NCBI RefSeq assembly: GCF_021631985.1
Contig: NZ_CP070225.1
Coordinates: forward strand, 5,022,001-5,086,000
From: Sandaracinus amylolyticus
Lineage (GTDB): Bacteria; Myxococcota_A; Polyangia; Polyangiales; Sandaracinaceae
Direction of reading: 5' to 3'
DNA: 64,000 nt
Shown here: positions 23,299 through 25,417 of the stretch, one piece after another
Numbering within the stretch: position 1 is the stretch's first letter
Layout of the letters: the number at the start of each line of letters is the position of its first letter
Notes under the pieces: generated by a model
Databases searched by the model: none
Told to the model about the DNA's origin: nothing
Seen by the model: the letters and a program-made list of their open reading frames with translations, nothing else
Position numbers and translations under genes: made by a program

Positions 23299-23742
23299 TC
23301 ACGACGAGGGATCGGGCGGTGCGCCGTACGCGGGCACCGCACCGCCACCCGCGTCGGGCGCGCTCCCGGCGTCGACCGGCGTGGGGCCACCGTAGAGCGG
23401 GCCGACGGCACCGGCGTCCTGCTCGGTGCCCGAGTCGATCGCCGGGGTGCCCGAGTCGATCGCGGGCGCGCCGTATGCGGGCACCGGACCCCCGGAGTCG
23501 ACCTGTGCGCCACCGTCGGGCGCGCGCTCTTCGCTCTCTGCGCAGCCGGTCACGCTCAGCGTCGTCGCGACCGCCGCGCCGAACGCGAACGTCGCGGCAC
23601 GACCGAGGCGTGTCGTCGGTGCACGCAGTGGCGGTGCGCTCGCGAGCGCGTCACCGAGCGACTCGCCGCAGAACGGACAGGCGCTCTCGCTCGCACGCAC
23701 GTGTCGCGTGCAGCCCGGACAAGGAAGCAATCGATTCGTCAT
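23299..23742 (-). CDS. Zinc-ribbon / lipobox protein with three P-x-Y-G-x-P motifs (candidate rSAM substrate)
   Basis: A 147-residue protein. Residues 8-25 form a zinc ribbon (CPGC...CPFCG; ligands C8, C11, C22, C25) with the block RHVRASE. A hydrophobic helix (about 49-65) ends in the lipobox-like SVTGC (C67). The rest is an Asp/Gly/Ser-rich spacer carrying PAYGAP (88-93), PLYGGP (115-120) and PAYGAP (137-142). GGGGAC just upstream supports ATG 23742 over 23754. It is a paralogue of the 105-residue protein 24 bases upstream and third in an operon led by a radical SAM enzyme. That the motif tyrosines are modified is inference. Function otherwise unknown. Confidence 0.72.
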   Translation of the reverse strand: MTNRLLPCPGCTRHVRASESACPFCGESLGDALASAPPLRAPTTRLGRAATFAFGAAVATTLSVTGCAESEERAPDGGAQVDSGGPVPAYGAPAIDSGTPAIDSGTEQDAGAVGPLYGGPTPVDAGSAPDAGGGAVPAYGAPPDPSS

Positions 23743-23766
23743 CTCGTCCCCCATCGTGCGGTCGGT

Positions 23767-24084
23767 TCAGTCGGCAGGCGCCGCGCCGTACGCGGGCGCG
23801 ACGGCTCCCGCGTCGACGCCCGCATCGCTCCCTGCATCCCGCGGCGGTCCGCCGTAGAGCGGCACCGGCGCCAGCGTCTCACACCCTGCGAGACCGACGA
23901 TCGCCGTCGCGATCGCGACCGCGCCCGCCTTCGCGCGGAACGACACGAGCTGCGCACGGCTCGTGATCACGACCTCGCGTGTCGTCGCGTCGATCGTGAT
24001 GGGCTCGATCGCAGCGCCGCAGAACGGACACTGCGCCTCGCTCGCGCGCACGTGGCGATGGCACGACTCACACGGTGTCAGCAT
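23767..24084 (-). CDS. Zinc-ribbon / lipobox protein with two P-x-Y-G motifs (candidate rSAM substrate)
   Basis: A 105-residue paralogue of the protein at 23299. Zinc ligands are C5, C8, C19 and C22 around the same RHVRASE block. A hydrophobic segment at 53-67 ends in GLAGC, a perfect lipobox (C68). The tail carries PLYGGP (75-80) and PAYGAA (97-102), separated by DAGSDAGVDAG. Its start overlaps the 3' end of the radical SAM gene by 17 bases, with GGAGAG upstream, so the two are translated from one mRNA. A zinc ribbon in front of a lipoprotein signal is unusual and might act as a recognition leader (inference). Confidence 0.72.
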   Translation of the reverse strand: MLTPCESCHRHVRASEAQCPFCGAAIEPITIDATTREVVITSRAQLVSFRAKAGAVAIATAIVGLAGCETLAPVPLYGGPPRDAGSDAGVDAGAVAPAYGAAPAD

Positions 24085-25417
24085 CTCGGCTCTCCTCGTC
24101 CTCGACGATCAGCTCGAAGCGTGCGTGATCGAAGGGCTGTCCCGGCGCGCTCTCCACCTTCACCACGCGCTCGCGCTTGCCCGCGCGCTGCATCTCGAGC
24201 GCGCGATGGTGGCAGTACGGATTGTTCCCCGGGCGCCCGAAGAGGACGAATCCCGTCCACGTGCACCCAGCGCGGCACTCGTCGGCGTAATAACAAGTGC
24301 GGCAATAGCCCCAGAGATCCTCGACGGTGCGATCGCGCGTGTATCGCATCGCGCTGCCGCCGCGCTCCCAGATGTCGACGAGCTTCGCGTCGCGGATGTT
24401 GCCGCCGGTCCACGCGAGCGTCGGGAGCGACGGGCATCCCTTGATCGATCCGTCCGCTTCGATGCCGAGCGTCGAGCGCCCCGCGCCGCACGAGTACATG
24501 TGGCCCTTGGGCAAGCTCCCGCGGAGCACGTGCTCGTGCGGCCCGAAGTACCCGACGTTGTTGCCCGGCCAGAGCCGCACGCCGCGCTCGCGACATCGCT
24601 CCGCGAGGCGCGCGAGCATCGGGAACACCTCGAGCAGATCGTAGGGCTGCAGCAGCACCTCGGGCTCGTCCGCGGCGCGCCCCATCGCGACGGTGAGCTG
24701 GATCTGCCAGCTGTGCGCGCCGTGATCCGCGATCGTCTCGAGCACGCTCGGCAGCTCGGGCGCGCTGAGCCGATTGATCTGCGTGTTCGCGCTCACCTGC
24801 ACGCCCGCGGCGCGCAGGTTCTTCATCGCGTCGAGCGCCGCGCGATAGCTGCCCGCGACACCGCGCAGGCGATCGTGCGTGGCCTCGTCGCCGTCGATCG
24901 ACACGCTCGCGCTCTGCAGGCCCGCCGCCGCGGCATCACGCGCGCGCTCCGGCGTGATCCCGCGCCCGCCGGTCGTGAGGATCGCCATCATGCCGCGCGC
25001 GCGGATGCGCCGGATGATGTCGGTCCAGTCGTCGCGCAGGTACGCCTCGCCGCCGATCAGCGAGACCTCCTTCACGCCGAGGTCCGCCATCTGATCGACG
25101 AGATCGAGGCACTGCTCGGTCGAGAGCTCGTCCGGTCGATCGCGCCCCGCGCGCGAGCCGCAGTGACGGCACGCGAGATCACACGCGAGCGTGATCTCCC
25201 AGACCGCGTAGATCGGGCGCACGCGTCGATCGATCGCGCGCGCGTCGTCGGCGAGCGGCAGGCGACGTCGCGCGGGCTCGGCCATCGGTGCGAGCGGCAG
25301 GGACTTCGGGCGAGGCGCGCGGAGGAGCGCGTCGCGCTCCTCCGCGCTGACCAGCTCGCGGCGCTCGGTCCGCGAACCGACAGACACCGCGGGCCCCTTG
25401 TGCTGCGAGTCCGACAC
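24068..25417 (-). CDS. Radical SAM / SPASM domain enzyme
   Basis: A 449-residue enzyme. The radical SAM cluster motif CxxxCxxC is TLACDLACRHC (C79, C83, C86), followed by LIGGEAYLRDD. The C-terminal SPASM region has YSCGAGRSTLGIEADGSIKGCP and WGYCRTCYYADECRAGCTW plus a later YCHH, enough cysteines for auxiliary clusters. SPASM enzymes typically modify peptides or proteins (RiPP maturases, anaerobic sulfatase maturases). The two downstream genes encode small paralogous proteins with repeated tyrosine motifs, and the nearest overlaps this gene's end. They are the best substrate candidates. It starts with GTG at 25417; a later Met at residue 45 is possible, since the first 55 residues are unconserved-looking. 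Confidence 0.88.
   Translation of the reverse strand: MSDSQHKGPAVSVGSRTERRELVSAEERDALLRAPRPKSLPLAPMAEPARRRLPLADDARAIDRRVRPIYAVWEITLACDLACRHCGSRAGRDRPDELSTEQCLDLVDQMADLGVKEVSLIGGEAYLRDDWTDIIRRIRARGMMAILTTGGRGITPERARDAAAAGLQSASVSIDGDEATHDRLRGVAGSYRAALDAMKNLRAAGVQVSANTQINRLSAPELPSVLETIADHGAHSWQIQLTVAMGRAADEPEVLLQPYDLLEVFPMLARLAERCRERGVRLWPGNNVGYFGPHEHVLRGSLPKGHMYSCGAGRSTLGIEADGSIKGCPSLPTLAWTGGNIRDAKLVDIWERGGSAMRYTRDRTVEDLWGYCRTCYYADECRAGCTWTGFVLFGRPGNNPYCHHRALEMQRAGKRERVVKVESAPGQPFDHARFELIVEDEESRDADTV

Follow-up and report, generated by a model that had tools for sequence, protein, structure and literature searches.

A candidate PlpX-type splicease with predicted zinc-ribbon lipoprotein substrates in Sandaracinus amylolyticus and other Myxococcota

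What does a radical SAM/SPASM enzyme modify when its gene runs into those of two small proteins, each joining a zinc ribbon to a lipobox-like helix and a tail dotted with tyrosines? This question is raised by a locus within the window, the whole 64,000-nucleotide stretch of Sandaracinus amylolyticus DNA that was analysed (71.6% GC; genome of 10.96 Mb), whose nearest named relatives in a genome-contig scan are Sandaracinaceae and other Polyangia of the Myxococcota.

Gene layout and the two small proteins

All three genes lie on the minus strand. The enzyme, a candidate PlpX/TIGR04103-like splicease of 449 aa (24068..25417; GTG start as listed, conserved part from about residue 34), shares the last 17 nt of its gene with the gene for a 105-aa protein (23767..24084), and a gap of 24 bases separates the latter from the start of a 147-aa paralogue (23299..23742). 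The 147-aa start at 23742 is preceded by a GGGGGACGAG-type ribosome site; no such site stands before 23754, where an alternative start would give 151 aa. These coordinates confirm the three-gene layout described in the initial annotation, and each detail that it gave of the small proteins (paired ribbons with an RHVRASE block, lipobox-like cysteines, five tyrosine motifs) is present in the sequence.

Both proteins begin with a C-x2-C-x10-C-x2-C ribbon with RHVRASE, assigned from sequence and alignment to C5-C8-C19-C22 of the first protein (24019..24072) and C8-C11-C22-C25 of the second (23668..23721). There is no nif11 or nitrile-hydratase-like leader in either; instead, the ribbon leads into a hydrophobic helix ending in a lipobox-like LAGC (105 aa; 23881..23892) or VTGC (147 aa; 23542..23553). 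The tails are rich in Asp, Gly and Pro and contain five [LA]-Y-G motifs and no further tyrosine. Two are in the 105-aa protein, Leu-Tyr-Gly at 23851..23859 and Ala-Tyr-Gly at 23785..23793, and three in its paralogue, Ala-Tyr-Gly at 23470..23478, Leu-Tyr-Gly at 23389..23397 and Ala-Tyr-Gly at 23323..23331. For the 147-aa protein, structure prediction gives a ribbon that is folded (pLDDT 76-86), a helix spanning residues 50-61 and a tail of low confidence; with only seven sequences behind it, the model is weak evidence. Across homologues, a cysteine of lipobox-like pattern closes the helix in 113 of 121 proteins.

A further block, R-[LM]-[SGT]-R-A-A, precedes the helix and is strongly conserved in the window proteins (23302-24084) and their homologues, with Arg48 invariant among 21 diverse heads; it may be a signal for export or for recognition by the enzyme.

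Kinship of the enzyme

The enzyme matches the Pfam radical SAM (PF04055, 1.7e-22) and SPASM (PF13186, 5.5e-6) domains. Its CxxxCxxC motif is C79/C83/C86 and its SPASM set has seven cysteines (C310, C328, C372, C375, C381, C385 and C402); in an alignment of 19 sequences, the radical SAM and SPASM cysteines are invariant or nearly so. An AlphaFold model (pLDDT 85) has SkfB, PqqE and SuiB as nearest PDB folds, as expected of a peptide maturase.

The top NCBIfam matches were TIGR04103 (nif11-class maturase 3, the PlpX family) at 517.6 bits and TIGR03913 (GDL-peptide maturase) at 499.3 bits, with the next family at 158. Membership of either family was rejected: the curated cut-offs are 725 and 591.75 bits, respectively, and the TIGR03913 match spans positions 14-390 of a 477-position profile, the C-terminal ribbon of that family being absent from the enzyme. 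A maximum-likelihood tree groups Nostoc, GDL-type and myxobacterial enzymes on a long branch away from the other radical SAM rows, with moderate support (94/98, just below the star threshold) and a sub-order that is not firmly resolved. On these sequence comparisons, the window enzyme is a sister of PlpX-type spliceases and GDL-peptide maturases.

As the genome-contig scan yielded almost exclusively myxobacterial relatives, an enzyme on a plasmid of Nostoc sp. C057 served as stand-in for Pleurocapsa PlpX. It scores 853 bits on TIGR04103, above the cut-off, and is 54% identical to the window enzyme. The nif11 precursor beside it has the C-terminal end ...GGRGSIALYGLPPELF (ALYGLPPELF), and a 71-aa ORF sits where PlpY would be expected. 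Splicing by PlpX was reportedly first described by Morinaka et al. in 2018. The InterPro entry of TIGR04103 is, we take it, IPR026482. A review places PlpX in IPR026482 (PMC11002830); together with the RRE protein PlpY, this enzyme excises tyramine at Xaa-Tyr-Gly and the chain is rejoined as an alpha-ketoamide (PMC11002830, PMC10533398). The initial annotation had known of no described system with this combination of features, a claim that finds no support in view of these sister enzymes. Moreover, the Xaa-Tyr-Gly that recurs in the window proteins is also the target of close relatives whose reaction is established (PMC10533398, PMC11002830).

Neither Pfam nor NCBIfam recognised an RRE domain in the window enzyme, and the operon contains no PlpY-like partner; a one-sequence search for a PlpY-like RRE, run without a positive control, came back empty in the genomes of 19 relatives.

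An enzyme in a record titled Verrucomicrobia (SZAS-18; locus L082) is 67% identical to the window enzyme and may reflect mis-binning, misnaming or transfer. Polyangium sp. y55x31 encodes two adjacent enzymes (L094:2888-4541), one of them GDL-like in the tree; TAAYGGPPIDG occurs in a divergent ribbon protein encoded there on the opposite strand.

Tyrosine motifs and linkage across genomes

We collected 121 ribbon proteins from 70 of 80 enzyme loci (78 from genome contigs, the window and the window's congener). In their tails, 290 of 320 tyrosines (91%) precede glycine, the remaining 9% or so lying outside YG, and 234 tail motifs have Pro at +3. Shuffled tails gave a mean of 60.9 (about 19%; sd 6.6, maximum 82), which, since the sequences are related, describes the enrichment and carries no independent probability. 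Elsewhere in the window, 31 coding-like ORFs gave a rate of 11% (23/214), and the heads of the 121 proteins have only two YG among 35 tyrosines. The residue before YG is most often Leu (80), followed by Ala (64), Pro (34), Met (30), Val (26) and Arg (19); the natural targets of PlpXY are MYG and LYG (PMC10533398). The myxobacterial tails carry P/A-X-Y-G-x-P and include the exact PLYGLP eight times, and published PlpXY test tags were GPIRPLYGLPI (RPLYGLPI) or a GYG version, only some placements of which were modified (PMC10533398). By this likeness, the P-[LA]-Y-G-[AG]-[PA] repeats are the Xaa-Tyr-Gly (XYG) splice motif of PlpX-type spliceases.

The ribbon genes are also linked to the enzyme. 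Among neighbouring ones, 111 of 121 lie on the enzyme strand, and in 47 of 48 loci no more than 100 nt separate the enzyme from the nearest downstream ribbon gene; overlaps of 4 nt are common. In 57 relatives, surveyed at order level with enzyme presence set at E<=1e-120, ribbon proteins accompanied the enzyme in 31 of the 34 genomes that have it and occurred in 0 of the 23 that do not (p 5e-13). Surveying the phylum, we found the enzyme in 59 of 189 sampled Myxococcota genomes (about one-third), with ribbon substrates in 31 of these 59 and in 0 of the 130 others (p 2e-19); the two surveys are not independent because they share genomes. Co-occurrence holds inside the enzyme-mixed families f4, f7, f9 and f12 (within-family product p 5e-6).

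There were exceptions to this pairing. No ribbon match at E<=1e-5 was found in 28 of the 59 enzyme-bearing genomes, mostly distant ones, where the profile, tuned to nearer relatives, is perhaps at its limit. Ten of the 80 enzyme loci had no detected ribbon protein: several are contig ends, two (L080 and L092) have a cut-off XYG tail immediately upstream of the enzyme, and the remainder have no substrate nearby.

These data bear on whether the ribbon proteins are ordinary membrane proteins or lipoproteins whose YGxP motifs are a quirk of low complexity, the enzyme having some other target. The tails are of low complexity and rich in Gly and Pro, and low-complexity tails can drift into repeats, but the preference for YG far exceeds that in shuffled tails and other window ORFs, the ribbon proteins are absent from all enzyme-negative genomes of the phylum survey, and the motif is retained in scattered paralogues; we regard this explanation as very improbable. 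The 105-aa and 147-aa proteins are almost certainly substrates of the enzyme. The pairing of enzyme and substrates proposed in the initial annotation is thereby upheld by the absence of such proteins where the enzyme is missing, and its prediction that the motif tyrosines are the modified sites gains support from their conservation. None of the three outcomes named there as refuting the idea came about.

Proposed reaction, dispersed substrates and the zinc ribbon

We consider it rather likely that the enzyme carries out PlpX-type splicing at the XYG sites of zinc-ribbon lipoprotein precursors before export, and that the ribbon-helix part is lost when the lipoprotein matures. As the enzyme scores below both family cut-offs, conserved chemistry is something that we infer from enzyme family and motif. 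Radical SAM enzymes function in the cytoplasm, so modification must come before export. There, the enzyme would recognise its substrate by the zinc ribbon at the N-terminus, by the short [P/A]-X-Y-G-x-P motif or by both and, once docked through the ribbon, would splice every XYG of the precursor. The spliced precursor would then be exported with the ribbon inside, the lipobox Cys acylated, and the ribbon-helix leader released by lipoprotein signal peptidase cutting at that residue, leaving on the cell envelope a flexible, lipid-anchored tail of Asp and Gly that bears several ketoamides. The original view of ribbon and helix as a leader-like N-terminal part finds support here. Export and lipidation are predicted from sequence patterns, and it is unusual for an exported protein to carry a folded ribbon before its signal peptide, which counts against the proposal.

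Crosslinking was the chemistry first offered as an example for the tyrosine motifs; tyramine excision is likelier, given that the window enzyme and those of TIGR04103 and TIGR03913 are sisters. More broadly, an enzyme diverged from PlpX may act on the same tyrosines by other radical chemistry, such as crosslink or cyclophane formation, Tyr oxidation or epimerisation of X. Radical SAM/SPASM families switch chemistry readily, the nearest PDB folds are varied peptide maturases and SPASM enzymes, and both the sub-threshold TIGR04103 score and the empty PlpY search would fit such a divergence. Against this, the strict Xaa-Tyr-Gly context is that of spliceotides, down to identical PLYGLP cores, and a crosslink needs a conserved partner at fixed spacing, whereas nothing beyond X, Y, G, x and P stands out in the alignment columns and X is freely variable. 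Thus, a change of chemistry seems improbable to us.

Alternatively, XYG splicing may serve a conventional secreted RiPP pathway, in which small ketoamide peptides are cut out, the ribbon is a simple leader and there is no lipid anchor. This reading overlaps with splicing of lipoprotein precursors on chemistry and differs from it on fate. Small operonic precursors beside a maturase would suit it, as would the protease inhibition known for ketoamide spliceotides (PMC11117315, PMC10373908). We nevertheless think it unlikely, for there is no protease or transporter gene in the window operon, the lipobox-like Cys is widely conserved at the helix end, and some substrates encoded away from the enzyme (L132, L135 and L144) carry XYG attached to longer C-terminal regions that appear folded, which implies more than a peptide natural-product pathway.

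Returning to splicing of lipoprotein precursors, such distant substrates are numerous. Genomes encode up to 27 ribbon proteins, most of them distant from the enzyme, and all 40 remote loci sampled in six genomes encode ribbon proteins bearing XYG. At two of these (L143 and L160), XYG directly follows the helix. A third ribbon protein in the window's own genome (G000:C1:7578282) ends VAAYGGPSPQ. This distribution suggests that the enzyme probably acts in trans on scattered substrates and, in related genomes, would serve many more proteins encoded elsewhere. The initial expectation of substrates encoded nearby therefore holds for the two neighbours and fails as a limit, since many lie elsewhere in related genomes.

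The likely use of the modified tails would be covalent, reversible inhibition of surface proteases or display of a reactive carbonyl, for instance in surface attachment. The beta-residues (ketoamides) of spliceotides inhibit proteases (PMC10373908, PMC11117315), which makes surface protease inhibitors plausible in a predatory group; this analogy is the weakest step of the proposal.

The zinc ribbon itself may be a shared module. GDL-type enzymes of Azospirillum and Aureibacter have a C-terminal ribbon and a Tropicibacter enzyme has an N-terminal one. A profile of myxobacterial substrate ribbons matched the Tropicibacter enzyme at E 3e-7 and those of Azospirillum and Aureibacter at about 1e-4 (to 4e-4; Z=10000), and the NCBIfam model matched by the largest number of substrate heads was TIGR03913 (9 of 21, best 2.4e-4); the similarity is modest, and such knuckles are short. 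In the Nostoc pair, neither enzyme nor precursor has a ribbon and the PlpY-like ORF is present instead. That one branch has the ribbon on its enzyme and another has it on its substrates fits a recognition or docking module. The pattern suggests a portable module, a supported hypothesis for which so short a match is no proof. We see roughly even chances that myxobacteria use the splicease as a general modifier, the ribbon of each substrate (a homologue of that fused to the GDL-type enzymes) being the tag that draws it to dozens of lipoproteins from all over the genome, so that cell surfaces bear reactive ketoamide beta-residues.

The reaction type is already known. PlpX/PlpXY spliceases (TIGR04103, IPR026482; Pleurocapsa) share with the window system a radical SAM/SPASM family, Xaa-Tyr-Gly in a P-L-Y-G-L-P context, several sites per substrate and substrates adjoining the enzyme. 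The window system differs in its sub-threshold enzyme, in lacking a nif11 or nitrile-hydratase leader and any PlpY-like RRE that we could find, and in its substrates, which are predicted to be lipoprotein precursors with a zinc ribbon and are in many cases encoded in trans. Scott et al. 2022 (Chem 8:2659) are said, to judge by the title and citing papers, to describe beta-residue-containing peptides and proteins as widespread. No zinc-ribbon or myxobacterial spliceases were found in the open literature searched, though that paper may mention the class; in the same literature we did not find the enzyme subfamily, the substrate class, the ribbon tag or the apparent genome-wide substrate set. DAG-RiPPs are lipoprotein-RiPP hybrids made by MNIO enzymes and matured through the lipoprotein pathway (PMC12636315). 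They are modified ribosomal products with a signal peptidase II lipobox and a lipid anchor, as is proposed here for the window proteins from their lipobox-like pattern; they differ in enzyme class and chemistry, have no zinc ribbon before the signal, and their enzyme reads a C-terminal motif (PMC12636315).

Tyramine excision is among the most drastic modifications known, removing part of the backbone and leaving a beta-amino acid with a reactive ketone, and has so far been a matter of natural-product clusters and a labelling tool. If our reading is right, about a third of sampled Myxococcota genomes, those that encode the enzyme, would use this reaction as a general means of modifying surface lipoproteins, one to a few enzymes per genome serving as many as 27 proteins. 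That would also supply testable targets for the native role of beta-residues, a new recognition module (part of the enzyme in one lineage, of the substrate in another) and naturally occurring tags with which proteins could be labelled site-specifically.

Finally, the GDL-motif/DUF1843 systems (TIGR03913) combine sister enzymes (about 55% identity in Azospirillum, 49% in Aureibacter) and a similar ribbon with some associated peptides that have LYGG or PYGV near the N-terminus. They differ from the window system in having the ribbon fused to the enzyme and short DUF1843 peptides as substrates, and the window enzyme falls below their family cut-off. On Azospirillum plasmids (L171:1528-2243, L172:1537-2237 and L121:5287-5742), the DUF1843 peptides encoded next to GDL-type enzymes have LYGG, PYGV or PYGP close to the N-terminus, and a further paralogue has MYM in place of the YG motif; this suggests that these peptides are also splicease substrates, with one copy degenerate. 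The N-terminal-ribbon enzyme on a Tropicibacter plasmid (L122:5674-7296) is accompanied by genes for other radical SAM proteins, a trypsin-like peptidase and an M23 peptidase. A row of genes on an Aureibacter plasmid (L123:3595-7923) comprises one for a rimK-like ligase, then three for DUF1843 peptides, the enzyme gene and one for a methyltransferase.
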